Assembly: GCF_013128195.2 (NCBI RefSeq)
Contig: NZ_CP053452.2
Location: forward strand, 7,626,001 to 7,690,000
DNA length: 64,000 nt
Source of the DNA: Frigoriglobus tundricola
GTDB lineage: Bacteria; Planctomycetota; Planctomycetia; Gemmatales; Gemmataceae
Direction: 5' to 3'
How positions within the stretch are numbered: the stretch's first letter is position 1; every line of letters begins with the position of its first letter. Made by a program: the position numbers and the translations under genes. The notes under the pieces are model-generated. The model saw only the letters and a list, made by a program, of their open reading frames with translations. It made no database searches and had not been told where the DNA came from. Positions 2,653-58,880 of this stretch are shown piece by piece.

Positions 2653-3465
2653 ATGTCACGCGCCTGTGCCGGCCTCAAGAACCGGCGGGGATTTACATTA
2701 ATTGAACTCCTGGTGGTGATCGCGATCATCGCCATATTGATCGGACTGCTCCTGCCGGCGGTGCAGAAGGTGCGCGAGGCCGCCGCGCGGATGCAGTCGT
2801 CGAACAACATCAAGCAGTTGAGCCTGGCGATGCACACGATGGCCAGCGCCAACGACGACAAGTTCTGTCCGGGCTACGGCACGTTCCCCGGTAGCACCGG
2901 AACGCCGGCCCCCTGGACGTGGTGGATCCTGCCGTACATCGAGCAGCAGAACGTGTACACGAACAGCGCCACCGGCCAGTACATCAAAACGTTCTACGCG
3001 CCCGGCGACGCCAGCTTCCTCGCCGGCAGCCCGTGGACGAGCTACGCCGGGAACAGCCTGGTGCTCCAAGCGGCCAACGTCTGCGCCAACCTGAGATCGA
3101 CCTTTGTCGATGGCACCTCTAACACGGTCGTGTACATGGAGCGCTACGCCGCCGCGTACACGAGCCCGGGGGCGACCGGTGCCACGGCGACCACCCACCC
3201 CTGGTGGCCCCCGGTCTCGACGTCGACTCCCCCCACGTACGATCCCACGCGCGTACTGATCGTCCCCACCGCGAGCTCCGGCTTCCAGATCAAGCCCACA
3301 CTGACCGCCGCCGATGACACCCTGCCCCAGGGGTTGTCGGTCGGCGCCATGCAGGTCGGGCTGGCGGACGCGAGCGTGCGCGGCGTCGCGGCGGGCGTGT
3401 CCCCGAACTCGTGGTTCATTGCGTGCGGCCCCGCCGACGGGATGCCGATGCCCACGGACTGGTAG
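2653..3465 (+). CDS. DUF1559 pseudopilin-like secreted protein
   Basis: A 270-residue DUF1559 protein. The ATG at 2653 is preceded by GAGGAG at 2640-2645. The prepilin-type N-terminus is '[19 protein letters not shown]' followed by '[19 protein letters not shown]'. The middle carries the '[18 protein letters not shown]' phrase typical of the family. The C-terminal '[20 protein letters not shown]' and 'DGMPMPTDW' give the canonical ending, so the gene looks intact. The N-terminal G-F junction is the expected prepilin peptidase cleavage site. It is shorter than the first DUF1559 protein and lacks its histidine-rich 'HPGG' motif. It is probably co-oriented and co-regulated with its neighbours. 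Biological role unknown. Confidence 0.93.
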
Positions 3466-46294: not shown

Positions 46295-47020
46295 GTGAGT
46301 CAGCTCCCGAAGATTAAAGGCGTTGCCGACATCGTGTTCCTGCTGGACGCGACCGGCAGCATGGGGCCGTGCATCAACGCGGTCAAGCAGAACATCAAGA
46401 CGTTCGTGCAGACCTTCACCACGCCGACGCCCAACGGTGCGGCGGTCGTCAAGGACTGGCGGGCGAAGATCGTCGGCTACCGCGATCTGGACTACATCGA
46501 CTTCCCGGCGATGGTGGACAACCCGTTCGTCTCGAGCGTGTCCGAACTCGAGGCCCAGCTCGACGCGCTCGCGGCCGACGGCGGGGGGGACGAGCCCGAG
46601 ACGCTCCTCGAAGCGCTGTACATGCTCGCCAACATGCCCGCGACCGGCCCGGACGAACCGCTCCGGCCCGATGCCTGGCGGCACGTCAATTCGGGGCGCC
46701 GGTTCGTGATCGTGTTCACCGACGCCCCGTTCAAGGAGCCCCTACGGCTCCCGCGCGACGCCAAGATCGATGACGTGATTCTGAACCTGATGACGGCCAA
46801 AATCGTGCTCCACATGTTCGCCCCGGCGTCGCTCGCGCGCTTCGGCGTGCTCGAAGAGGTGGACAAGGCGCTGTGGCACAAGGTGCCCGTGAGCGGCGGC
46901 GAGACCGCACAAAAGGCGCTCGAAGACTACACCGCCGATCAGAGCAAGTTCGAGAAGATCATCCAGCTGTTGGCGAAGACCATGACCCAGCAGTCCGCCG
47001 ACGTGCCGGCGGCGGACTGA
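46295..47020 (+). CDS. vWA-domain protein (first of two)
   Basis: GTG 46295 follows GAGG at a five-base distance and gives 241 residues; ATG 46283 is possible but lacks a ribosome site. The von Willebrand A fold is clear: 'IVFLLDATGSMGPCINAVKQ' with the MIDAS start D18-x-T-x-S22, a middle 'WRAKIVGYRDLDYID', the third metal-loop region 'AADGGGDEPETLLEALYML' and 'RRFVIVFTDAPFKE'. No signal peptide or membrane helix, so it is cytosolic and probably binds a partner through a metal ion. It opens the signalling island. In TerY-P type systems a vWA protein acts with a kinase and phosphatase; the same logic is proposed here. Confidence 0.88.
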   Translation: MSQLPKIKGVADIVFLLDATGSMGPCINAVKQNIKTFVQTFTTPTPNGAAVVKDWRAKIVGYRDLDYIDFPAMVDNPFVSSVSELEAQLDALAADGGGDEPETLLEALYMLANMPATGPDEPLRPDAWRHVNSGRRFVIVFTDAPFKEPLRLPRDAKIDDVILNLMTAKIVLHMFAPASLARFGVLEEVDKALWHKVPVSGGETAQKALEDYTADQSKFEKIIQLLAKTMTQQSADVPAAD

Positions 47021-47028
47021 GTCGACTT

Positions 47029-47106
47029 GCATTCCCTGGGACCGCGGGGCGTCCCGCCCGCTTCTTGGCGAAGAGCGGGCGGGACGCCCGCGGTCCCAGG
47101 GAATGC
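47029..47106. repeat. palindromic repeat, family C
   Basis: GCATTCCCTGGGACCGCGGG and the rest of the 34-base left arm (47029-47062) pair with 47074-47106 with one bulged base; the loop is about 11 bases. The motif 'GGGACCGCGGGCGTCCCGCC' type is a dispersed palindrome in planctomycetes (recollection). It lies between the two vWA genes. Confidence 0.85.
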
Positions 47107-47172
47107 CTATCAAGCGATGGGGTGCGTGCTTGGTGAGCGCCGGAGGTGAAATTCGCCGAGTGTGGAGCAGAC

Positions 47173-47934
47173 ATGGCGACGAGTAGCACGAAGGGCGTGG
47201 TGGACGTGGTCTTCTGCCTGGACGCGTCGGGGTCGATGGCCCCGTGCATCGACGGGGTGCGGAGGAACCTCGACGGGTTCCTGGACGCGCTCGCGGGCGA
47301 CGCCAACCGCAAGATCGACTGCCGGCTCGACTTCCTCGCCCACTCCTGCGGCGAGGACGGCGACCTCGTGCGCTCCGTCTCGCTCCGCAAGAGCGGGGCC
47401 GACCTGATCCAGGCGCTGTACGGCCAGGTGCCGCAGCCGGCCGCGTTCTTCACCACCGATCGCGACGCGATCCGCCGCGGGCTCAAAGAGCTGACCGTTT
47501 ACGGCGACGAGGCCATGCTCGTCGCGCTGGACATGGCCCTCGACTTTCCCTGGCGCCCGCAGGCCGGCTGCCACCGCGTGGTGGTCGTCCTCACCGACGA
47601 GCCGCTCGAAGCCAACGCGATCTGGTCCCTTCAACAAACAAAACTGGACGCGATCATCGATAAGGTGCAGAAGCTCGGCGTGAAACTGTATCTCGTCGGT
47701 CCGAACTCGGCCGGGCTGGACACGCTGGCCGAAGCGGACAAGTGCCTGTACCAGAAATCGGCCCAGACCTACGACGGCTTGGGGTCCATCGACTTCGCCA
47801 AGGTGCTGGGGCAGATCGGCAAGTCGGTGTCGTCGTCGCTGCTCCAGGCCCGACCGGAGTCGGCGGTGAAGCGGGCGCTGTTCGGCCAGGACGAGTGGGT
47901 GGCGTCGCAGGACTCGATCCGCGGGGGGCGGTAA
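47173..47934 (+). CDS. vWA-domain protein (second of two)
   Basis: ATG 47173 with GGAG five bases upstream gives 253 residues. The vWA fold starts 'GVVDVVFCLDASGSMAPCID', with a perfect MIDAS D17-x-S19-x-S21. Later strands include 'KIDCRLDFLAHSCGED' and 'HRVVVVLTDEPLEANAIWSL', with 'LGVKLYLVGPNSAGLDTLAE'. It differs from the first vWA protein in its middle region and has a C-terminal tail of about 35 residues. Its stop lies two bases before the GTG of the kinase gene, so the two are translationally linked and the products probably interact. Confidence 0.9.
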   Translation: MATSSTKGVVDVVFCLDASGSMAPCIDGVRRNLDGFLDALAGDANRKIDCRLDFLAHSCGEDGDLVRSVSLRKSGADLIQALYGQVPQPAAFFTTDRDAIRRGLKELTVYGDEAMLVALDMALDFPWRPQAGCHRVVVVLTDEPLEANAIWSLQQTKLDAIIDKVQKLGVKLYLVGPNSAGLDTLAEADKCLYQKSAQTYDGLGSIDFAKVLGQIGKSVSSSLLQARPESAVKRALFGQDEWVASQDSIRGGR

Positions 47935-47936
47935 CG

Positions 47937-49211
47937 GTGTACAACGTCGGTGACAAGGTACAGGGGTACACGATCAAGGATCTCATCACCATCGGGAACA
48001 ACTCCGTGGCCTACGCGGCTACGGACCCGGCCGGCCGCAAGGTGTTCTTCAAGGCGTACCAGTCGCCGTCGATCCGGGTGCCGTGGTACAAGGGGTTCGT
48101 CGATCACCAGCGGGAGATGAAGACGCGGATCGAGGGCAGCCCGTGCCGGCAGTTCTGCTACCAGTTCCTCGGCGGGTTCGAACACGGCCGAAAGTTCCAT
48201 CAGGTGTTCGAGTTCCTGGACAAGAGCCATTCGCTCGAAAAGATTCTGGAGCGGGTGAAGACGCACCCGGTCGAGGTGCCGTGGACCGCGCGCGAGCTGA
48301 TGGCGAAGGTGCTCGTTGCCGGGATCGCACAACTGCACGCGGCCGGCATCGTCCACGCCGACCTGAAGCCCGACAACATCATGCTCATTGAGGACGCCTC
48401 TCTTGGGATGAAGTACCGGCTCAAGATCATCGACATGGACTTCTCGTTCTTCACGGACCGCAAGGCGCCGTGGCACGGGCACGAGGGCTATTTCGGTACG
48501 CCCGGCTACATGAGCCCGGAACACGCCAAGGTGCCGCTGCCGGTATCGGACGTGTTCACCCTCGGCATCATCCTCTACCAACTGCTCGGGCCGGGGCACC
48601 CGTACCCGTTCGACGACAACGACAAGATCCTCGCGGCGTACCAGGAGTACGGTGTCGAGGTGCCGAAACTGACGGGCACCCCCGGGCCGCCGGCCGCGGC
48701 CGAAGCGGTCGCCGATGCCCTCCACCGGTGCCTGAACCCGAACCCGGCGAAACGGCCGAGCGCCGCCGAACTGCACAAGACGCTGTTGGGCGAAAAATAC
48801 GTACCGGCGCCGTCCGCTCCGTTGCCTCCGCTCCCGTACACGCTGAGCGAACCCGTCGCGCCGCCGAGTCGAGAAGCGGCGCCCGCTCCGCCCGCCGCGC
48901 CGCTGGCGGGCGGGCTGGTGCTGGTCGGACCCGGCGGGGCGGAACTGGCCCTCAGCGCGCGGTTGGCTCTTGGCCGGACCGTACTCACGACCCGGTTCGG
49001 TGAGGGCGGGCGGTACGCGTCCGACCGGCAGGTCGTTCTCGACCGGCAAGCCGACGGGTGGTACGCCGAGCCCGTGGCCGGGACGACGAACGCGACGCTG
49101 TTGAACGGACACGTCCTCGTTTCCCGCACCAAACTCGCCGCGGGCGACACCATCGGCATCGGCAACGCCGCCTCGAAGCGGTCCAAGCTGGACATGCAGG
49201 TTCGTGTTTAG
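47937..49211 (+). CDS. Ser/Thr protein kinase with C-terminal FHA-like domain
   Basis: GTG 47937 is two bases after the preceding stop and gives 424 residues. The kinase domain (about 10-285) has the ATP lysine in 'RKVFFKAYQS' (K39), catalytic loop 'HADLKPDNIML' (Asp142; the usual HRD Arg is Ala), 'KIIDMDFSFF' where DFG is replaced by D-M-D, and 'GTPGYMSPEH'. No typical glycine-rich loop is seen: 'TIGNNSVAYAAT' stands in its place. The tail (about 320-424) is FHA-like, 'LALGRTVLTTRFGEGG' and 'TTNATLLNGHVLVSRTKLA', expected to bind phosphothreonine. No membrane helix, so it is a soluble kinase, unlike most planctomycete kinases. Confidence 0.9.
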   Translation: MYNVGDKVQGYTIKDLITIGNNSVAYAATDPAGRKVFFKAYQSPSIRVPWYKGFVDHQREMKTRIEGSPCRQFCYQFLGGFEHGRKFHQVFEFLDKSHSLEKILERVKTHPVEVPWTARELMAKVLVAGIAQLHAAGIVHADLKPDNIMLIEDASLGMKYRLKIIDMDFSFFTDRKAPWHGHEGYFGTPGYMSPEHAKVPLPVSDVFTLGIILYQLLGPGHPYPFDDNDKILAAYQEYGVEVPKLTGTPGPPAAAEAVADALHRCLNPNPAKRPSAAELHKTLLGEKYVPAPSAPLPPLPYTLSEPVAPPSREAAPAPPAAPLAGGLVLVGPGGAELALSARLALGRTVLTTRFGEGGRYASDRQVVLDRQADGWYAEPVAGTTNATLLNGHVLVSRTKLAAGDTIGIGNAASKRSKLDMQVRV

Positions 49212-49389
49212 TGTCGGGTGTACGCAGGTCGCATTGAAAGCTGAGGCAGGCGCCGCAGCGGGTGAGGGGGCTTCGCGGCGCCAACCAGGGCGTCGAAGAG
49301 GTCAATGATGTTCGGTGTTTCATTGACGTGTTCAGAATGAAAATGTGGCACCGAAGACAAACACAAGACGCCAAACCTGGAGGGCATCG

Positions 49390-49794
49390 ATGTCCGCGAC
49401 AACGACGTGGAAGTGCCCGCAGGACGGGATGGAGTGGTCGATAAAAGAGCGTAAGTGCCCGACGTGCGGGTACGTGAACATCCCGAAGTCCGTCACCCTC
49501 CGGTCGCACGCGACCGGCAAGGGGGCGGCGCTCAGTGCGACCACCCGGTTGGGCAAGTCGGTCTTTAACCAGCGCTTCGCGGACCCGGACGCGAAGTTCG
49601 CCGCCGACGAGCAGTTCGAGATCGTCCGCGACGACGTCCACCTGTTCGCCTGGGTCATCCGGCCGGTCGCCGGCGCCCGCAACGCGACGTTCTACAACGG
49701 AACCGAAGTGCCCGACGCGGGGTGTGAACTGGTCGAGGGCGGTGTCATCACCGTCGGCCGGACCCGGCTGAAGCTGACCGTGACGTTCAAGTGA
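49390..49794 (+). CDS. zinc-ribbon plus FHA-like protein
   Basis: ATG 49390 with GGAGGG five bases upstream gives 134 residues. An N-terminal zinc site is seen as 'WKCPQDGMEW' and 'RKCPTCGYVN', though the first pair lacks one cysteine (C-P-Q-D). The rest (about 35-134) resembles the FHA-like tail of the kinase, with 'TTRLGKSVFNQRF' and 'ARNATFYNGTEV', then 'ELVEGGVITVGRTRLKLTV'. It is likely a phosphopeptide-binding adaptor for the kinase. The gap after the kinase is 178 bases; the phosphatase gene starts 17 bases downstream. Confidence 0.78.
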   Translation: MSATTTWKCPQDGMEWSIKERKCPTCGYVNIPKSVTLRSHATGKGAALSATTRLGKSVFNQRFADPDAKFAADEQFEIVRDDVHLFAWVIRPVAGARNATFYNGTEVPDAGCELVEGGVITVGRTRLKLTVTFK

Positions 49795-49811
49795 GGCGAG
49801 GGGTCGTAGGC

Positions 49812-52004
49812 ATGTCCGACATCGCTCTGCCCAACGACCGCGCGCTCACGGAGGGGGAGCGCCAGGCGTTCAAGCGGCTCGGCCTCACGCCCGGGCACCT
49901 GGCCGCGCTCGTGGCCGCTCCGTTTTTTTCGCGCTCCGGTGCCCGCGTCCCGAATTTGCGCGACCCGCACGACGCGAAGGCGCTGGAGGAACTGCGCCGG
50001 CTCGTGCGCGGCGCCAGCCACGGGTACGCGGACGAGGCGCTGGCCTACTGGAAGCGGTTGAGTGCCGGCGAACGCGGCCTCGCACCGCTCGGCACGCGCC
50101 TTCTGGCCTGGCACCTCGCGACCGACCTCGAATTCGACGCGCGTGAGCACTTCCTCACCGCCTGTCGGGGCGTGGCCGCTCGGTTCGCGCTTCCGGGCGT
50201 TCGCCCCGACACGCCCTCGGCCGTGTTCCGCGACCTGCGCCGCCTCATCGACGCCTACTTTGCCTATCCGACCTTCACCGCCGATGTGGACCCGGTGTGG
50301 ACGTCGGTCGCCCCGCCCGGTGCCGAAGTGCTGACGCGCCTCGCGGGTGGGATCGCGCCCATCGCCGGTCCCTGGCCCGCGGTCCCGCCGGCGCAAGTAG
50401 CGGCACGGATGCGTGCCCTGGTGGACGTGTTCGGCCTCCCGGTGAGCGACTGGTGGGAGCGTCCGGACGCGGGCCGCCGCGCCATCGAACGCGGGCTGGC
50501 GGCGCGAGGCGCCAACGAGCGCGAGACCATCTACGAGCGCATTCAGGCGGAGTGGCTGGTGGAAGTCGAGTCGTCGTTCCGCTGGCCGAACAGCCCGCAA
50601 TTCGCCGCGTTTTTTGTGGACCGCCTGCGCGAATGGACCGATGCCGTTCGCAAGGCGGCCCGCGCCGTCCACGCGTCCGGGCCGCCCGCGGCGGTGCCTG
50701 ATGAGACGGCCCCCATTGTTGTGTCGCACCCGGAACCGGCGCCCGGTTCCGCGGACCGGCCGGCCGAACCACAACGGAACGATTCCGTGCGCGCCCCCGT
50801 CCCCCCGCCGGACGCGGCCCCGAAGCTGCCTGCGAAGCCCGTACCTGAGCGCGTGACAGCGACCGTGGCGGCGCCGTTCAACATGGTCGGTCTCGATGCG
50901 GCGCTGGCCCGCGCCCGGACGACGACCGTCGCCGACGTCTGCGCCTGGGTGGACACGGGGCCGCGCCTGCTGTTCGATGACGGCCGCGACCCGGCCGCAC
51001 GCGAGGTCGCCGTGGTCCGGGACGGGGCGACGGTCCCCTCTCCGCTGTGGGTGATCGGCGACCTCCACGCCGACATCCTCACCCTGGCCAATGCCGTCGC
51101 ACACGCCGAATCGCACTCGGCCCCCGCGCACTTCGTGTTCCTCGGTGATTTTGTCGACCGCGGGATTCACGATCACGAACTGCTGCTCTTCCTCTTCGGG
51201 CTGGTGATGAGCCACCCCGAGCGGGTGTGCGTGATCCCCGGCAACCACGACACCGATCTCCGGTTCGACGAGCCGGGCGGGCGGTTCCGGGTGACGATCG
51301 ACCCGGCCGAGTACTGCGAGGAACTGAACGCGGCACGGGAACGGGACGGTCCCGAGGATCGTGAGCGGGTGACACTGGCGCGGGCGTTCATCCGCTTCTG
51401 CGCGGACCGGCCGAAAGCGGTCTTCCTTCCGGACGGCACCCTGTTCGCACACGGCGGCTTCCCCCACACCGACGCGCAGAAGGACATCGCAACGGTGGCC
51501 GACCTGTGCCGGCCGCGGTGCCTGGACGACTTCTTGTGGGCGCGGATCGCCGAGAGCGCGCGGGTGAAGCGGCCGAACCGCGGGAGCCGCGGGCACGAGT
51601 TCGGCTGGGACACGTTCGCCCAGTTCTGCAAGCTCGCCGGCGAGCGCCTGGGCGTTCCGGTGAAGCGCCTCGTTCGCGGCCACGATCACGTTCCCGACCG
51701 GTGGCAGGAGTACCCGGAGTACGCGGACAACTTCGTTCCCGTCCTCACGCTGAATGCGATGGGCCGCGCCCTCGACGGCGATTCACCGCGGCGCGACGGC
51801 CGCCGGCACCCGCTGCCGGTGATCGGCCGGTACGTGCCGGACCGTTTGCCGGAGGTGGTGGCGCTCCCGCTCGACCCGGCCGAAGTGGACCGCGCGTTCG
51901 GCCGCCCCGGACCCGGGGGGGCCACTGCGGCGCTCGGGGAGGTGGTGGACCAACTGCTCGCGCGTGTCACGCGGGACGAACCGGGCGCGGAGGGCGGACC
52001 GTGA
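49812..52004 (+). CDS. PPP-family Ser/Thr phosphatase with large novel N-terminal region
   Basis: ATG 49812 gives 730 residues. The first 300 or so residues are a helical domain of unknown family ('ALTEGERQAFKRLGLTPGHL', 'YERIQAEWLVEVESSFRWP'). A Pro/Ala linker follows (about 300-350). The C-terminal metallophosphatase domain has all PPP motifs: 'GDLHAD' (about 416), 'GDFVDRG' (about 444), 'GNHDTD' (about 477), 'HGGFPH' (about 547) and 'RGHDHV' (about 622). It is thus expected to be a two-metal protein phosphatase, the probable opposite of the kinase upstream. Its last four bases overlap the next start (GTGA), so it is co-translated with the zinc-ribbon protein. Confidence 0.9.
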   Translation: MSDIALPNDRALTEGERQAFKRLGLTPGHLAALVAAPFFSRSGARVPNLRDPHDAKALEELRRLVRGASHGYADEALAYWKRLSAGERGLAPLGTRLLAWHLATDLEFDAREHFLTACRGVAARFALPGVRPDTPSAVFRDLRRLIDAYFAYPTFTADVDPVWTSVAPPGAEVLTRLAGGIAPIAGPWPAVPPAQVAARMRALVDVFGLPVSDWWERPDAGRRAIERGLAARGANERETIYERIQAEWLVEVESSFRWPNSPQFAAFFVDRLREWTDAVRKAARAVHASGPPAAVPDETAPIVVSHPEPAPGSADRPAEPQRNDSVRAPVPPPDAAPKLPAKPVPERVTATVAAPFNMVGLDAALARARTTTVADVCAWVDTGPRLLFDDGRDPAAREVAVVRDGATVPSPLWVIGDLHADILTLANAVAHAESHSAPAHFVFLGDFVDRGIHDHELLLFLFGLVMSHPERVCVIPGNHDTDLRFDEPGGRFRVTIDPAEYCEELNAARERDGPEDRERVTLARAFIRFCADRPKAVFLPDGTLFAHGGFPHTDAQKDIATVADLCRPRCLDDFLWARIAESARVKRPNRGSRGHEFGWDTFAQFCKLAGERLGVPVKRLVRGHDHVPDRWQEYPEYADNFVPVLTLNAMGRALDGDSPRRDGRRHPLPVIGRYVPDRLPEVVALPLDPAEVDRAFGRPGPGGATAALGEVVDQLLARVTRDEPGAEGGP

Positions 52005-52390
52005 AGTTGGTGTTGCAGTGCGCCATGTGCGGCACCCTTCACCCGGTCGGGTCCCCGTCGTGTTCCACGTGCCGGGCGTCCGGAGTGCCGCAGATGCGGT
52101 TGATGTTCGAGTGCTCCGCTTGCGGCGCCCTCGGCCTCAACCCGTCGTGCAGCGCGTGCCCGGTCGGCGTGCCACTGGACCTGGACGACGATCTGATCGT
52201 CGCGGAGGAGGTTCCCGACGAACCGCTCCGGATCGACCCCGTGGGCCTCGGAGCCTTTGAGGAAATCGACCTGGATTTGGACCTGGGGCTAGGGGACGAA
52301 CTCGCGCTGGAACTGGACGACGAGGACGAAGCCGTAATCATTGACCGGACGGACGGGGACGATGCGGTCGATTTTGAGGCGACGGGCTGA
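52001..52390 (+). CDS. double zinc-ribbon protein with acidic tail
   Basis: GTG 52001 overlaps the phosphatase stop and follows GGAGGG. The 129 residues begin with two zinc ribbons: 'CAMCGTLHPVGSPSCSTC' and 'CSACGALGLNPSCSAC'. The second half is strongly acidic ('LDLDDDLIVAEEVPDE', 'EEIDLDLDLGLGDELALELD') and ends 'DAVDFEATG', likely disordered. Zinc ribbons followed by acidic tails often act as adaptors for nucleic acid or protein partners. Alternating hydrophobic/acidic residues make a phospho-independent docking strip possible (inference). Confidence 0.82.
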   Translation: MKLVLQCAMCGTLHPVGSPSCSTCRASGVPQMRLMFECSACGALGLNPSCSACPVGVPLDLDDDLIVAEEVPDEPLRIDPVGLGAFEEIDLDLDLGLGDELALELDDEDEAVIIDRTDGDDAVDFEATG

Positions 52391-52427
52391 TACGAAACGG
52401 TGTGGAGGGCGCCGACCGATTTTCGTC

Positions 52428-52582
52428 CGGCCCGCTCCCTTGCGGGAGTGGGTGGCGAGGCTGTTTGGCCGGGCGAGGGGCCGCTCAGCAACGGAAACAG
52501 CGGGGTGCGATCTTCAGGGGCGTTGGTTCCCCTCACCCGGCCGCCAAGGCGCCAGCCACCTTCTCCCGCAAGGGGAGTGGGC
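52428..52582. repeat. family B palindromic element between island genes
   Basis: Left arm from about 52428 (GGCCCGCTCCCTTGCGGGAG, then TGGGTGGCGAGGCTGTTTGG) and right arm to about 52582 are imperfect reverse complements, with 'CCCCTCACCCGGCCGCCAAG' and 'CTCCCGCAAGGGGAG' on the right. It lies upstream of the ATG at 52629 while that frame stays open through it. Confidence 0.82.
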
Positions 52583-52628
52583 CGAGCACGAGCGTATGAT
52601 CGGGTGCGACGGTGGGGGGAAGTCGCGG

Positions 52629-55022
52629 ATGGACAACCTGATCGCGCGGTGCCCCAACTGTGGCATGGAGCAGGCGGACGCGTTCGCCCACTGCTTCGTG
52701 TGCATGACGCCGTCGCGGTGGTGGTGCCGGGCGTGTTGCGCGTGGCGCCCGACGCGCGGCTGCCCGGCCTGCGGCGGCGGGCTGACCGTGCCGTCCGAGG
52801 TGTTCCTGGGCGGGTGGCCCGTCGGCACCACGGTCCCGTTCAAGATCACCGCCCGCAACCCGAACAACAGACTGGTCGGCTGCGCGGTCAGCACGGCCGA
52901 TGAAGGGGTGACGATCCTCGCTCCGCGTATCCTCGTCGCGCCTTTTGGATATGTGGACGTGTCCGGTCGGATCACCCTCCCGCCCGGGCCGCTCGGGCGC
53001 CGCACCTTTCGGCTCGCGTTCCCGACCGGGGTGACGGTCGAAACGGTGCTGGTCGTCGAAGCGCAGGTGCCCACCCCGCGCCTCGAATTCGTCCCCGCGC
53101 ATGTCGCGCTGCGTGCCCCGCGCCCGGGGGGAACGGTGTCCTCGGCGATCGCACTGAAGAACACCGGCAACGTGGCGCTTACCGCGGCGCTGTCCGCCGA
53201 AGACCTCTGGTTGTCCGCCGACCCCAGGCGGCTGACACTCGCACCCGGTGAATCGGTGGACGTGCGGTTGCGGGCCCGGAGCCGGAAAACGGACTCCGGC
53301 ACCCGCGAAACGCTGCTCACCGCGGTGGCCGAGGGCGGGACCTGGGCGGCGACGGTCCGGTACGCGCTCCCTCCGCCCGAACTGACTGCGAACCCGGTTT
53401 CTTTTGGGGAGCTGAGCTCCGGGGGCCGGTCGGTCGCGGAGGTCGTCGTGCGGAACACGGGGCACGTGCGGGTGGTCTGCGCGGTCACGGTCGCGGCCCC
53501 GTGGTTGAGTGCGCTCCCGGCGCGGATCAACCTGGCACCGGGCGGCGAGAGGACGGTCCGCCTTCGCGCGCTCGTCACCGCGGAACACGACGGCCCCCTG
53601 GCGTCCGAGCTGATTTTGACTTCGGACGGGGAGGTGGTGCTGCGCGTGCCCGTGACGGCGACCGCGACCCGGCCGCGCCCGCAGCTCCGGCCGGTCCGCC
53701 GCCAGCGCGTCCTCGACGCGGCCGGTACGGCGATCGAGCGGAGGTTCCAACTCGCCAACGACGGCGACGGGCGGCTCGACCTCACGGCCGGGGCCGACCA
53801 GCCGTGGGTCAAGCTCCTTACGCCCGAACTCTCGGTGGCGCCGGGCAAGAAGCGGAACCTGCGGTACCGGCTGGACCTCACGGTCCTGCCACGCGGAGAG
53901 CACAAGGCGACCATCACGCTCGCGACCAACGCCGGGCCGGTTGAAGTGCCAATTGCCGTTACCGTACTCGATCCGAACCCGCTGCTGGAGATTTTACCCG
54001 CACCGGCGATGGGCGCGGTGTCGCCCGGCCTGCCGCTGTCCGCGTTCGTGCAGGTGCGCAACGCCGGGATCGGTCTTCTCACCGTGCGGGCCGAGAGCGA
54101 AAGCCCCTGGGTGGTCGTTTCGCCGCCACTCGTGGACGTTCCCGCCGGGCCGCCGGTGCGGCTCAACCTGTCGATCCGCGTGGCCGGCCTCGGGGGCGGC
54201 GAACACGAGGCGGCGGTGCGGCTGACGAGCAACGGCGGCAGCGGGCGGGCGGCCGTGCGCTTCCGGCTCCCGGTGGAACAGATCGACGTGCCCAAACGGA
54301 TCGACTTGGGCGACCTGCCGGCGGGGCAATCTGCGGGCCACGCTCTCAGGGTCCGGAACTTCGGGCCGGACCGCGTGGGGCTGACGGTTCGGGGCGAACA
54401 CCCGTGGTTGGAACCCGGGCGCGATTATCTCACCGTGAACCCCGGCGAGACGGTCGCGCTCCCGTTCCGCGTGAACCTGCCGTCCGGCGTGCTGGGGCCC
54501 GTGGGGAGCACGCTCGTTCTGGAGGGGCGTGCGGTGCGCTACGCGGTCGCGGTGCGGGCGTGGGCGCGGAAGGTCGAACTGGTGCTACTGCCGGGTGTCG
54601 TGTCGCTCGGTCCCGTGAATCCCTGTGAGGTGCGGACGTTCACGGTTGACGTTCTTAACGCGGGCGAGATCGCGGCCGACATTCGCGAGTCGCACACGTC
54701 GGGTCCGCTCGAGGTCTGGGTGCGACGGGCGACCGTGTTGCCGGGCGAACGGGTCACCCTGCTCGGGCGCGTGCGCGTGAACGAGCGGCGGACGGGTGCC
54801 TCAGTGCGTGCGACGGTTCAACTGGCCGACGGTGCGGCCCTGGGGGTCGTCGCGCGGGTGGTGGCGCCGACGCTGGCGGGGGCACTGGCGGTTGCGACCG
54901 TGGCGGGCGCGCTGCTCGCCGGCGCGGTGCTGGCCGTTTCCGTCGGCTGGTGGGCGGGCGTTCCGGCGCTGGTCCTTGGCATCTGCGCGAGTGCCTGGAT
55001 CTACGACCGCCAGACGACGTGA
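52629..55022 (+). CDS. zinc-ribbon, repeated beta-sandwich, C-terminal membrane protein
   Basis: ATG 52629 gives 797 residues; ATG 52596 is possible and the frame stays open still farther up. Three cysteine pairs form N-terminal zinc modules: 'CPNCGMEQADAFAHCFVC', 'WWCRACCAW' and 'RGCPACGGGL'. The bulk is a run of about six or seven immunoglobulin-like beta-sandwich repeats of roughly 95-100 residues with phrases such as 'VVRNTGHVRVVCAVTVAAPW' and 'QVRNAGIGLLTVRAESESPW', recalling ASH/BACON-like domains. The C-terminus has one or two hydrophobic helices ('ATVAGALLAGAVLAVSVGWW'). If the zinc part is cytosolic, so are the repeats, which suggests an internal membrane scaffold. Confidence 0.82.
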   Translation: MDNLIARCPNCGMEQADAFAHCFVCMTPSRWWCRACCAWRPTRGCPACGGGLTVPSEVFLGGWPVGTTVPFKITARNPNNRLVGCAVSTADEGVTILAPRILVAPFGYVDVSGRITLPPGPLGRRTFRLAFPTGVTVETVLVVEAQVPTPRLEFVPAHVALRAPRPGGTVSSAIALKNTGNVALTAALSAEDLWLSADPRRLTLAPGESVDVRLRARSRKTDSGTRETLLTAVAEGGTWAATVRYALPPPELTANPVSFGELSSGGRSVAEVVVRNTGHVRVVCAVTVAAPWLSALPARINLAPGGERTVRLRALVTAEHDGPLASELILTSDGEVVLRVPVTATATRPRPQLRPVRRQRVLDAAGTAIERRFQLANDGDGRLDLTAGADQPWVKLLTPELSVAPGKKRNLRYRLDLTVLPRGEHKATITLATNAGPVEVPIAVTVLDPNPLLEILPAPAMGAVSPGLPLSAFVQVRNAGIGLLTVRAESESPWVVVSPPLVDVPAGPPVRLNLSIRVAGLGGGEHEAAVRLTSNGGSGRAAVRFRLPVEQIDVPKRIDLGDLPAGQSAGHALRVRNFGPDRVGLTVRGEHPWLEPGRDYLTVNPGETVALPFRVNLPSGVLGPVGSTLVLEGRAVRYAVAVRAWARKVELVLLPGVVSLGPVNPCEVRTFTVDVLNAGEIAADIRESHTSGPLEVWVRRATVLPGERVTLLGRVRVNERRTGASVRATVQLADGAALGVVARVVAPTLAGALAVATVAGALLAGAVLAVSVGWWAGVPALVLGICASAWIYDRQTT

Positions 55023-55188
55023 TGCGGGCACCGCGCGGGCGATGAGAGCGATCACCAGATGAGCTTGCGTGGGTAAAGAGTTGGTCTGCCCTCTTCTTGT
55101 TTCCTACATATACTCTCTGCCCGGAACCGGTGAGCGATGCTAGACTAGAACTCGATTCGCACCTGCCGGAACGGGGCCAGTTTGTGCT

Positions 55189-56670
55189 ATGACGGACGAG
55201 TTGGCCGAAGCGTTGGTCGCACTCTTCGAGCGGCTCGGACCGTATGTTCAGACCGATGCGCAGTTGCGCGCCGCCGTCACCGGGCTCGGCCGCGCGATCA
55301 CCGCGTGGACCGAACAGCTCGGCCCTCCGCCTCAGGTACAGCCCCCCGTTTCCGAACCGGCGCTCCCGCCGGCCCCACCGGTCGTCATCCCGTCGGACTT
55401 TTCGCTCGCCAAACCGCCCGCCCCGATCGTTCGCGCCTCGACCCTTCCCGACGAGGACGACCGCGGCATCACGCCGGTCGAGCTGTCGGTCATCGCCCGC
55501 CGGTGCCAGTTAAAAGCGGAGGCGGCCCGGGTGATGGCGGCCCGCAAACGGGGCCACACCTCGCCCCCGCTCCCCGATGATCTCGTGAGGCGGGCCGGCG
55601 GGCTGCCCGACTGTGACCTGTGGATGCTCCACCCCGGTGACTACGTGGACGCGCCGAAGGCGTGGGAGGACCTGGCCGGGGCGTTCGCCGTGGGCGCGGA
55701 GGCGGCCGACCTGCTGGCGGTGCTGAAGGAGCTGCCCGAGGGGCTGGCCGAGCGGCACCGCGAGCGCGTTCTGTACGCCGTCGCCGAGTCGCAGGCGATG
55801 ATGTGGGCGGGGCTCCTGGACGTCCACCGGCGCGTGGACAACGACCAAGTGCACCTGTTCGTTCACGTGCGCGAGGCGGCGCGGGCGTCGCAGATCTACA
55901 TCAACCGCTATTTGAAGCGCGAGGACCGGGTGGCCGCGGACACGTGGCCGGCGCTCCTGAGCCGGATCGCGGTGCTGAAGGAGCAACTGTCCGACGCACG
56001 CGGCAAGGCCCGGACGCGCGACAAGGGGCTCACGAACCTGAAGTACAAGTTGCGGAAAATGGCCGAGGTGCCGGCGAACGCGGCCGCCGAGTGGCCGCGG
56101 GTGCTGGAACTCCTCGACGAGGTGGTGGCCGCGGGCGTGCCCGCGAGCAACGCGGACGTTCGGGAGCTGCTCCTGCCGGTTCTGGACACGCTCCCCGAGG
56201 ACCAGGAGCCGGGGCCGCACGCCGAGCGGGTGTTCCAGGCGGTGAACGAGTTCCTGGCGTCGCGCCCCGCGCCGCTCCCCGCGGCGGGTGAGGAGGAGCC
56301 GTCCGCGGAGGTGCGGGCGGTCGCCGACCTGCTCCGCGGTCGCGAGGTGGTGCTGATCGGCGGCGTGGAGCGGGCCGCCAGCGCCCGTGCCATCGAACGG
56401 GCGTTCGGCCTGTCGGACCTCAACTGGATCTCGACGCGGCCGCACGAGTCGGTAACGATCTTCGAGCCGGCGGTCGCGCGCGGGGCCGTGGCGGTGGTGC
56501 TCCTGGCGATCCGGTGGGCGAGCCACAGTTACGGTGACGTGAAGGACTATTGTGAGAAGTACGGCAAGCCGATGGTGTACCTCACGGCCGGGTACAACCC
56601 GAACCAGATCGCCCACCAGATCCTCGCGCAAGTGGGCGACCGGCTCCGGGCGCTCAACCGCGCGGGTTGA
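55189..56670 (+). CDS. large protein with C-terminal DUF2325 domain
   Basis: ATG 55189 gives 493 residues. An N-terminal helical part (1-40) and a Pro-rich linker (45-75) lead to a mostly helical middle with a long charged coiled-coil ('LSDARGKARTRDKGLTNLKY'). The last 100 or so residues match DUF2325: 'REVVLIGGVERAASARAIER', 'ARGAVAVVLLAIRWASHSYG', 'DVKDYCEKYGKPMVYLTAG'. DUF2325 is a Rossmann-like domain of unknown function seen in regulatory or conflict-related proteins. It ends the island, 166 bases after the scaffold gene. Confidence 0.85.
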   Translation: MTDELAEALVALFERLGPYVQTDAQLRAAVTGLGRAITAWTEQLGPPPQVQPPVSEPALPPAPPVVIPSDFSLAKPPAPIVRASTLPDEDDRGITPVELSVIARRCQLKAEAARVMAARKRGHTSPPLPDDLVRRAGGLPDCDLWMLHPGDYVDAPKAWEDLAGAFAVGAEAADLLAVLKELPEGLAERHRERVLYAVAESQAMMWAGLLDVHRRVDNDQVHLFVHVREAARASQIYINRYLKREDRVAADTWPALLSRIAVLKEQLSDARGKARTRDKGLTNLKYKLRKMAEVPANAAAEWPRVLELLDEVVAAGVPASNADVRELLLPVLDTLPEDQEPGPHAERVFQAVNEFLASRPAPLPAAGEEEPSAEVRAVADLLRGREVVLIGGVERAASARAIERAFGLSDLNWISTRPHESVTIFEPAVARGAVAVVLLAIRWASHSYGDVKDYCEKYGKPMVYLTAGYNPNQIAHQILAQVGDRLRALNRAG

Positions 56671-56877: not shown

Positions 56878-57798
56878 GTGCGCCGCTCTCGCATCGGATT
56901 CACGTTACTCGAGCTGCTTGTTGTCATCGGGATTCTAGCAGTTCTAATCGGCCTGCTCCTCCCGGCCGTCCAGAAGGTCCGCGAACTATCACTCCGGATG
57001 CGGAGCGAGAACAACGTCAAGCAGTTCAGTCTGGCTGTACTCACTTATGCCGACACGCGCGACGGCCAGTTGCCGTCTACCGACTACCGCTCACCCGCGT
57101 TTCCGTTAAACGTCCATCAGTGCGCCGAAATGATCCTCCGGTCGGACTCTTTTGCGAGCGGGGCTAAGTGGATTTTTCATTGGGAGCAGACGTTCCTCAG
57201 CCCCGCCGATCCCTCAGTCGATTGGTTCGTCAGCCAAGACGCGGCGAATCGGGCGGCGCTCGAACCCGGGTCCGTCGGTGCCAACTCCTATCAGGGCTTG
57301 GCACCAACGAGCTACACGGCGAACGCGCAGGTGTTCCGTGGATCGCCACGCTACCCGTTTGGCATTCTCGATGGCGTGTCCAACACCATTTTCTACGCCG
57401 AGAGGTATGCGGACTGCCGACTCAACGCGGACGATTACGCGGACCAGTTCGTCATGTTCGCTTGGGGCGGGCCGAACTTCGCGCCGGGGGCCAGTGAGGA
57501 TCAAGTGTACCCCGTCCAGGTGCCTGGAGGGGTGAGCCAGCCGAGTCGGTCCGGAGCGACGTTCCAACCTCGTCCGGTTTGGCACCCCCGCCCGGGCACT
57601 CCTGATGGAGTTCTTGAACTGTACACCAACCCGCCTCCGGGTTACTGCGATCCAACCATCCCGCAAACGCCTCACACGGCGGGTATGATTGTTGGTTTGG
57701 GTGACGGCTCGGTTCGCACTATTACTTCGGCAAGGAAGTTGCTCAAAACTAGACGAGTCCACATTGAGGCCCTGATGGGTCTTGCCATCGTCCGATAG
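56878..57798 (+). pseudogene. DUF1559 gene, 5' part, disrupted by IS630
   Basis: The frame starts at GTG 56878 after GGAGGGG. The prepilin-type start is '[20 protein letters not shown]' and then '[10 protein letters not shown]', as in the other DUF1559 genes. The family phrase '[18 protein letters not shown]' is present, and '[12 protein letters not shown]' opens the C-terminal motif. At residue 281 the IS630 copy enters at a TA; the last 25 or so residues ('[20 protein letters not shown]') come from the IS end. The true C-terminus is preserved beyond the IS at 58883. The chimeric product has lost the family ending and is probably non-functional. Confidence 0.9.
57720..57721. repeat. TA target-site duplication, left
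   Basis: The TA dinucleotide at 57720-57721 is repeated at 58881-58882, as expected for IS630/Tc1 type insertion. Confidence 0.85.
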
Positions 57799-58880
57799 GT
57801 TGCTGTGTCATGGCGATCACCTTGCCGGATTCTCGTGGGCTGTCCGACGACGTCATGCAGGCGTTGCGCGTGCGCGCGTTGCACGCGATCGAGTCCGGGT
57901 TCTCGCAAGCCGATGTGGCCCGCGTGCTGGGTGTGGCGGGTGAAACGGTGTCGCGTTGGTGGACGGCGTACACGACCGGCGGGTTGGACGCCCTGCCCCA
58001 GGATCGCACCGGGCGCCCGGTCGGAACCGGGCGCACCCTTTCCGACACACAGTGTGCTCATCTGCAACAGCTCCTGGACACAAAGAGCCCGGCGGATCTG
58101 GGGATCGCCGCGCCGGTGTGGAACCGTCGCGCGGTTCGCGATCTGATCCTCAAGGAGTACGGGCTCCGGATGCCGATCCGCACCGTGGGGGAATACCTGC
58201 GGCGCTGGGGCTACACGGCCAAGAAGCCGTCCCGCCACGCCCGCAAACAAGACCCCGACGAAGTGCGGGAGTGGCTCGAGCAGACGTACCCGGCCATTGA
58301 GAAGCTGGCCCGGGTGGAACGGGCCACCATCTTCTGGTGCGATGAAACGGGGGTCGCCGCCGACGCGTATCCCGGTTACGGGTACGCCCGCGCGGGCGAA
58401 CGGGCGACGATCCAGGTTCCCGATCCGCACATCCGGATCAACATGGTGTCCGGGATCAGCAACACGGGCGAGGTGCGGTTCATGACGTACGCGGGGACGA
58501 TGACCGCCGAACGGTTCATCGCGTTCCTGAAGCAGCTGCTGGCGACCGTGCCGGGCGCGATCTTTGTGATCGTGGATAGCTTGTCGGCCCACACCACGGA
58601 GACGGTCGCCACGTGGGTACAAGAGCATGAGGAACGCGTGGCCGTGTTTTATCTGCCCCGGTACAGCCCCGAATTGAACCCCGACGAATATCTCAACAAC
58701 GACCTGAAGGGGAACGTGCATGACGCCGGCTTGCCCGACACCAGCAAGACCTTGCGATCGCGCGTCCAACGCTTCATGCACAAGCTCCTCATGCTCCCCA
58801 AACACGTGATGAGCTACTTCCTCCACCCCAAGATCAGCTATTGCTCATCAGATTAATGACAATCTTGTTTGCCGAGGTAA
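57722..58880 (+). mobile_element. IS630-family insertion sequence, complete
   Basis: A 1159-base element bounded by imperfect terminal inverted repeats: left TTACTTCGGCAAGGAAGTTG and right, as complement, TTACCTCGGCAAACAAGATT (about 18 of the first 24 match). It contains a single full-length transposase gene and is flanked by TA on both sides. Removing the element and one TA restores the DUF1559 reading frame, so the limits are certain to the base. Confidence 0.93.
57810..58856 (+). CDS. IS630-family transposase
   Basis: ATG 57810 gives 348 residues. N-terminal HTH region: 'ALHAIESGFSQADVARVLGV' and 'SRWWTAYTTGGLDALPQDRT'. A winged-helix part follows ('LILKEYGLRMPIRTVGEYLR'). The DDE catalytic triad is intact: Asp in 'TIFWCDETGVAADAYPGYGY', Asp in 'IFVIVDSLSAHTTETVA' and Glu in 'YSPELNPDEYLNNDLKGNV'. 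Length fits the family. Because all active-site residues are present and no frameshift is seen, the element may still be able to move. Confidence 0.95.
   Translation: MAITLPDSRGLSDDVMQALRVRALHAIESGFSQADVARVLGVAGETVSRWWTAYTTGGLDALPQDRTGRPVGTGRTLSDTQCAHLQQLLDTKSPADLGIAAPVWNRRAVRDLILKEYGLRMPIRTVGEYLRRWGYTAKKPSRHARKQDPDEVREWLEQTYPAIEKLARVERATIFWCDETGVAADAYPGYGYARAGERATIQVPDPHIRINMVSGISNTGEVRFMTYAGTMTAERFIAFLKQLLATVPGAIFVIVDSLSAHTTETVATWVQEHEERVAVFYLPRYSPELNPDEYLNNDLKGNVHDAGLPDTSKTLRSRVQRFMHKLLMLPKHVMSYFLHPKISYCSSD

Follow-up and report, generated by a model that had tools for sequence, protein, structure and literature searches.

A vWA-kinase-PPP phosphatase gene cassette that recurs in Planctomycetota, Verrucomicrobiota and rhizobial plasmids and may encode a phosphorylation switch

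What holds a run of signalling genes together on a planctomycete chromosome, and do all of them belong to one system? The question is raised by positions 46295-56670 of a 64,000-nucleotide stretch of the Frigoriglobus tundricola genome (9.86 Mb, 95% completeness), called the window below. This region carries eight open reading frames, all on one strand, and the open frames and their translations confirm that each of the eight exists. The original prediction treated them as a single island for a phospho-switch. Its centre has held and its extent has not: a core of three genes, encoding a von Willebrand factor A (vWA) protein (vWA1), a protein kinase and a PPP-type phosphatase, recurs in three phyla; the eight genes are not one conserved unit. 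We propose, with a probability of roughly two in three (0.68), that this core may be a self-contained and horizontally spread phosphorylation switch, often accompanied by a second vWA protein (vWA2) and a small zinc-ribbon/FHA protein.

The three core genes lie in a single run at 22 loci (G and L numbers are our handles for genomes and loci): 6 in Planctomycetota (the window, G016, G017, G019, G023 and a Singulisphaera), 7 in Verrucomicrobiota and 9 on megaplasmids of Rhizobium and Microvirga. G016, G017, G019 and G023 retain the window order vWA1, kinase, zinc-ribbon/FHA, phosphatase; vWA2 is missing in G016 and G023. Contig ends cut the core in two further genomes of the genus: G014 is split over two contigs, one carrying the vWA1, vWA2 and kinase genes and the other those of the phosphatase, zinc-ribbon and beta-sandwich proteins, and the G020 contig starts inside vWA2, no vWA1 match being found in that genome. 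Among 95 genomes of the family, the phosphatase matched in 21; after 14 genomes with weak matches were dropped before counting, 7 with strong ones remained, all in the genus of the window. Strong vWA1 matches were found in 6 genomes, all among these 7, the seventh being G020; the weak matches in G015 and G032 (6e-9, 1e-8) were likewise dropped. The phosphatase also gave weak matches elsewhere in the family, outside this genus (L034-L037), none of them with a cassette vWA or kinase match adjoining.

Wider scans extend the distribution. A kinase-alignment scan of one genome per species (84,980 species), which undercounts because only two short peptide patterns were used, gave 9 loci: six of the genus, a Singulisphaera metagenome-assembled genome (MAG), the Verrucomicrobiota MAG KLAP44, and L046, a kinase without cassette neighbours. 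The Singulisphaera MAG (45%) and KLAP44 (38%) carry vWA1, kinase, zinc-ribbon/FHA gene and phosphatase in that order. A search of 72,556 plasmids with the phosphatase, with vWA1 and with the kinase led each time to one set of 9 records (7 Rhizobium, 2 Microvirga), in which the three matches adjoin, the kinase matching one Nonomuraea record besides; these cores were counted from match positions, and five intact copies and one frame-broken copy were read in detail. The six triads read have no zinc-ribbon/FHA gene, and on plasmids the vWA2 query matches only vWA1 genes. The frame-broken copy, on CP050552 (L050 15028-18908, Rhizobium leguminosarum RCAM0610 plasmid), is a decaying cassette whose vWA frame is open but whose kinase and phosphatase frames are fragmented. 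The Verrucomicrobiota scan covered 387 genomes and found vWA1 in 7 (8 loci), with the kinase adjoining at 8/8 and the phosphatase at 7/8. An even sample of 392 Planctomycetota genomes (E<=1e-25) gave a match only in the window's own genome, and 1/45 genomes matched in the order of Singulisphaera. In viral contigs there was no kinase relative, and two remote vWA matches (29% and 33%). From these counts the cassette is rare, patchy and spread across phyla; the genome scans score few candidates each (<=7 in the Planctomycetota even sample and in the Verrucomicrobiota vWA1 scan, 3 in the Verrucomicrobiota phosphatase scan), so misses are possible. A Nonomuraea plasmid kinase (L080) was tried as a cassette kinase and rejected, with 28% identity and no vWA, PPP or other cassette match adjoining.

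The core is conserved as a unit. In the family the 6 vWA1-positive genomes of 95 all fall within the 7 strong phosphatase genomes (hypergeometric 8e-9), and in Verrucomicrobiota the 7 vWA1-positive of 387 all fall within 13 phosphatase-positive genomes (7e-12). Pairwise distances are correlated over 18 loci (vWA1-kinase 0.955, vWA1-phosphatase 0.941, kinase-phosphatase 0.975; reached by 0/2000 permutations) and over 12 representatives (0.901, 0.878 and 0.935; 0/5000 permutations), though these correlations and the co-occurrence p-values ignore genome kinship, which adds to such figures. L050 and L075, the latter having no phosphatase, were excluded from the distance and phosphatase analyses; the L075 kinase is within the 20 aligned kinases described below. 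Six plasmid copies were compared over 9.9-kb flanks on each side, and the common stretches amount to <=~350 bases adjoining one or other end of the triad, plus dispersed matches of <=407 bases. As the flanks share almost nothing, the core behaves as a self-contained cassette. At L055 a stretch of ~90-100 bases beside the triad end, which occurs in several Rhizobium plasmids, is repeated 3.4 kb downstream and is possibly a cassette boundary repeat.

These data also bear on the plainest alternative, a chance cluster of signalling genes. Planctomycetes carry many kinases and vWA proteins, and such abundance, together with the variation of the accessory genes, speaks for it; the recurrence of one run of genes in three phyla, and on plasmids whose flanks differ, refutes it for the core, and as an account of the whole it is extremely improbable. 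A neighbourhood search had been named beforehand as the result that could overturn the island, and the co-occurrence found elsewhere left the core standing. Chance clustering holds for the DUF2325 gene only.

Pfam matches support the two vWA proteins, the kinase and the PPP-type phosphatase that had been predicted, and place the FHA-like kinase tail just under the cut-off. In the kinase (Pkinase 1.5e-25), the lysine K39, the catalytic aspartate D142, the asparagine N147 and the metal-binding aspartate D166 are the same in 20/20 aligned sequences, and all hits among the best 50 listed in its fold search are kinases. The phosphatase matches Pfam Metallophos (calcineurin-like, 4e-16); whether compared by sequence profile or by fold, the solved structures that match it best belong to PPP Ser/Thr phosphatases (PP2A, PP1, PP5, calcineurin). 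The best 50 of 739 Foldseek hits are enzymes of this kind, or complexes or fusions of them, with template modelling scores by target of 0.25-0.64. The metal motifs GDxH, GDxxD, GNH(D/E), H(G/A)G and GH are recognisable in 19/19 enzymes, the exceptions in detail being GDHD in G682 and AH for GH in G641. Of the two arginines of the PPP phosphate clamp, the first (GDxxDRG) is present in 12/19 and the second (R before GH) in 17/19. The phosphatase N-terminus, predicted to be a novel region of 300 residues, is present and spans ~340; it is found in only 4/19 aligned enzymes (window, G017, G019, G020), is predicted to be helical with moderate confidence, and is therefore a lineage add-on.

Besides kinship, several findings weigh against a self-contained switch. 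The first clamp arginine is missing in 7/19 phosphatases (5 aligned plasmid enzymes, KLAP44 and G016), so protein substrates are not certain. In 18/18 kinases listed, the HRD arginine is replaced by A, G, S, C or T and DFG is DxD; the enzyme is, on its residues, a non-RD kinase. The structure models are of moderate quality, with a predicted local distance difference test (pLDDT) score of 67 for the phosphatase and 60 for the kinase, which is poor overall with a confident, beta-rich FHA part. One vWA1-kinase pair (G682:C66, L075) has no adjoining phosphatase and a run of N in its vWA gene. Phosphatase relatives stand alone in 6 other Verrucomicrobiota genomes without a vWA1 match and at one further G682 site. 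A tree of 18 cassette, 7 lone and 6 outgroup phosphatases (one plasmid enzyme left out) mixes lone and cassette forms and needs 5 state changes, of which well-supported branches force at least 3; the phosphatase thus joined or left more than once. The cassette enzymes are separate in this tree from the short PPP-like proteins of the family. The lone relatives in Verrucomicrobiota (L100-L106) have no vWA or kinase neighbours; at L100 and L101 the adjacent divergent gene encodes a small cysteine-rich protein, similar in the two.

Both vWA proteins score above the Pfam VWA cut-off (vWA1: VWA_4 3.3e-9, VWA 2.5e-5; vWA2: VWA_2 6.7e-7). Within the genus, vWA1 of four further cassette genomes is 71-89% identical to the window protein; over the other 13 loci compared the range is 32-53%. 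The DxT/SxS and T/S-D motifs are found in 18/18, and the loop-2 threonine position lies within a GGGDE motif in 16/18. The second vWA gene accompanies 9/15 chromosomal cassettes, two contig-cut ones counted (window, G014, G017, G019, G020, G538, G788, G641, G810).

The FHA-like domains depart from the canonical pattern. The window's kinase tail matches Pfam FHA with E 7.6e-4 and 20.3 bits against a cut-off of 20.7; 10/20 kinases match at E<=0.01, no zinc ribbon is among the Pfam families matched by the 20, and the G610 kinase (L078) has no FHA-like tail. The small zinc-ribbon protein had been described as an FHA-like adaptor. It scores under the Pfam FHA cut-off, yet its profile matches the FHA-like tails of 17/19 full-length kinase relatives (E 7e-5 to 5e-12). 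Besides the window, it occurs in G016, G017, G019, G020, G023, Singulisphaera, KLAP44, G641 and G810. The canonical phosphothreonine-binding residues of FHA domains are Arg, Ser, His and Asn. In 17 kinase tails the Asn is kept in 17/17 and the Arg in 7/17, Gln replaces His in 16/17 and the Ser is not conserved; the zinc-ribbon/FHA protein has Gln at the His position in 8/8. Lacking most of the canonical residues, these domains are doubtful as ordinary phosphothreonine readers, and docking appears the more likely function.

The table gives the eight frames. The close junctions noted at the outset, on the near side of the kinase and on the far side of the phosphatase (GTGA), were both read in the sequence.

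Table. Open reading frames of the region, in window coordinates
Feature	Position	Strand	Description
vWA1 (core)	46295..47020	+	241 residues; vWA of metal ion-dependent adhesion site (MIDAS) type; GTG start by homology
vWA2 (frequent extra)	47173..47934	+	253 residues; second vWA protein
Kinase with C-terminal FHA-like domain (core)	47937..49211	+	424 residues; starts 2 bases after vWA2
Zinc-ribbon and FHA-like small protein (frequent extra)	49390..49794	+	134 residues
PPP-type phosphatase (core)	49812..52004	+	730 residues; catalytic part ~residues 383-696, N-terminal add-on ~1-340
Double zinc-ribbon acidic protein (genus-level accessory)	52001..52390	+	129 residues; 4-base overlap with phosphatase stop
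Zinc-ribbon protein with Ig/ASH-like beta-sandwich repeats and hydrophobic C-terminus (genus-level accessory)	52629..55022	+	798 residues
DUF2325-like protein (outside cassette)	55189..56670	+	

The last three genes do not share the distribution of the core. The double zinc-ribbon protein (Pfam DZR at E 0.12 only) has orthologues in the same position in G014, G017 and G020, the last cut by a contig end. The beta-sandwich protein matches HYDIN_VesB_CFA65-like_Ig (6.2e-18) after a cysteine-rich N-terminus, and its gene is present in 6/19 genomes of the genus: window, G014, G017, G019, G020 (on a separate contig) and G018, the last of which (82% complete) gave no phosphatase or vWA1 match. In the window, G014, G017 and G019 it lies downstream of the phosphatase. 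It was not found in the cassette genomes G016 and G023, and neither gene is present in the 14 loci read outside the genus. The two proteins are thus accessories at the level of the genus, rather than essential parts. The phosphatase of G788 is followed by a different protein, whose matches are of zinc-ribbon and Fn3-associated type. An ARAGORN call of tRNA-Glu at 53834-53933 (-), within the beta-sandwich frame, is probably a false positive.

The DUF2325 assignment is a weak match (E 0.0069), and the gene was rejected as the member it had been predicted to be: it is found in 27/95 family genomes at separate loci, and cassette genes are absent around it from all five regions read, of which two come from cassette genomes. 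In G014, G017 and G023 it and the cassette lie on different contigs, and it was undetected in G016, G019 and G020. A little past it in the window is a transposase frame at 57810-58856 (+), presumably IS630-like. Two prepilin-like proteins with a GFTLxELLVVI N-terminus, common in planctomycetes, are encoded at 2653-3465 and 56878-57798 (+). A bpMoxR gene (PF20030 3.2e-61) comes after the cassette in G016, G019 and G023. It too was rejected as a member: it is present in 18/19 genomes of the genus, and in G000 a distance of 1.1 Mb separates it from the cassette, which makes its position beside the cassette probably a coincidence. Elsewhere, the gene upstream of the G810 cassette (L077 14144-17080) joins AAA domains to an FtsH-type M41 peptidase, and a Radical SAM-type gene (L078 8457-9140) is close to the three-gene cassette of G610.

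How would such a switch work? The MIDAS-bearing vWA protein or proteins, with the FHA-like and zinc-ribbon domains, would keep kinase and phosphatase together in a single assembly. The kinase would phosphorylate either itself or the product of an adjacent gene, the phosphatase would reset this, and the balance of the two would set an on/off state that a neighbouring partner may read. In the genus of the window the likely downstream partners are the zinc-ribbon and the membrane-ending beta-sandwich proteins; in other lineages other neighbours may fill this place. Complex formation, protein substrates and switch behaviour are in this scheme what the gene set and its conserved residues would lead us to infer.

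Some neighbours suggest a more specific use. In KLAP44 a ZorA-like gene (PADLOC ZorA1 2.4e-18) is divergent from the cassette and is followed by the start of a ZorB-like gene (4.1e-5) at the contig end, and in Singulisphaera a weakly ZorA-like gene (1.9e-4) starts 1 base after the phosphatase. Two relatives beside genes for Zorya-like motors, one of them weakly so, hint at defence. The cassette might then be a stand-alone anti-phage or conflict module, in which infection tips the balance of kinase and phosphatase, the kinase then arresting the cell or switching on an adjacent effector, for instance the Zorya-like motor. The patchy spread over phyla and on plasmids would fit, as would matches of the kinase domain to the PADLOC kinases mad6 (1.5e-29) and PD-T4-6 (1.8e-23), although many kinases would match these. 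However, vWA1, vWA2, the zinc-ribbon/FHA protein and the phosphatase have no PADLOC match at E<=0.1, and the two Zor-like proteins, used as BLAST queries, hit nothing related across 28 kb of the window and the 20 remaining stretches (a neighbouring vWA1-kinase pair among them), a search of low sensitivity, since neither query recovers the other. Genes that we take to be rpoN, a carboxylase and an RNA-ligase-like gene lie ahead of the cassette in the window and likewise in G016 and G023, a setting that is presumably housekeeping-like and speaks against the defence reading. Two similar systems, TerY-P and the KKP module, are reported to be antiphage in excerpts of PMC11090510, PMC7699616 and PMC11341870. 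On balance a dedicated anti-phage role is an unlikely, if live, alternative to a general phosphorylation switch.

Comparison with known systems begins with the TerY-P triad, which in the excerpts of PMC11090510 consists of a TerY vWA protein, a PP2C phosphatase and a kinase-zinc ribbon protein. The cassette resembles it in joining a vWA protein, a kinase with a C-terminal accessory domain and a phosphatase in a compact cassette, sometimes with two vWA proteins, as predicted from the start along with the PPP enzyme that sets it apart. Could it be a true TerY-P triad that exchanged PP2C for a PPP enzyme? The three roles are the same, and vWA duplication is described for TerY-P in type III-A CoCoNuTs (PMC11090510, excerpts). 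The parts, however, differ. The phosphatase is calcineurin-like and PPP-type rather than PP2C; the kinase bears an FHA-like domain, whereas the TerY-P kinase has a zinc ribbon or OB-fold; the zinc ribbon is on a separate FHA-like protein; and the vWA proteins are not detectably TerY-like. A PphC query, a single query of limited sensitivity, found no PP2C in the 22 cassette-locus stretches and found itself in L060. At E<=1e-3 neither the vWA1 nor the vWA2 profile reaches YegL (L060) or the ter-plasmid vWA genes (L081), YegI is not hit by the kinase profile, and TerY_C has no match at E<=0.1 in the eight window proteins; the comparators are few, one K-12 locus and one ter plasmid, with no classical TerY-P kinase from the literature. 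An exchange of phosphatases therefore seems doubtful. By sequence, the cassette appears to work like a TerY-P triad without being one, as PP2C, the kinase zinc ribbon and TerY-like vWA features all went undetected.

Other systems share single traits. The KKP module of Pf prophages, two kinases and a PP2C in the excerpts of PMC11341870, is likewise a kinase/phosphatase balance module on mobile DNA, and the FHA status of its kinases is considered there; it differs in its PP2C and second kinase, and those excerpts name no vWA protein. In the GAP1-N2-associated set (Kaur 2020, PMC7159879, excerpts) a kinase-zinc ribbon protein, a phosphatase and a stand-alone vWA protein adjoin, but the phosphatase is PP2C and the system is GTPase-centred. 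The likeness to the MoxR-vWA ternary systems (Kaur 2020) lies in the bpMoxR gene after the cassette in three genomes of the genus, whereas the cassette has no dedicated MoxR partner. Among bacterial PPPs, ApaH, PrpE and Rhilph/RLPH have the motifs GDxH, GDxxD, GNHD, HGG and GHxH in common with the cassette phosphatase, and plant RLPH2 is among its profile matches (6.2e-8). The motif (I/L/V)D(S/T)G, said to mark all bacterial PPPs (PMC535813, abstract), is missing from 17/19 cassette regions scanned, the 2 matches (L051, L054) being upstream of GDxH.

In the text retrieved from the open-licence PMC literature, no vWA-kinase-PPP cassette is described, and the vWA/kinase/phosphatase and kinase/kinase/phosphatase modules that do appear all use PP2C. 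PPP-based vWA phospho-switch cassettes might accordingly be an undescribed class parallel to the PP2C-based TerY-P, an exchangeable control unit for membrane effectors such as the Zorya-like motors or, in the genus of the window, the beta-sandwich scaffold; this is a speculative extension, to which we give rather low odds. If kinase and calcineurin/PP1-like phosphatase are indeed coupled through a vWA protein on mobile DNA, the same switch would have been built with two unrelated phosphatase folds, TerY-P using one and the cassette the other, and the rhizobial plasmids offer a three-gene form of it that is directly testable.

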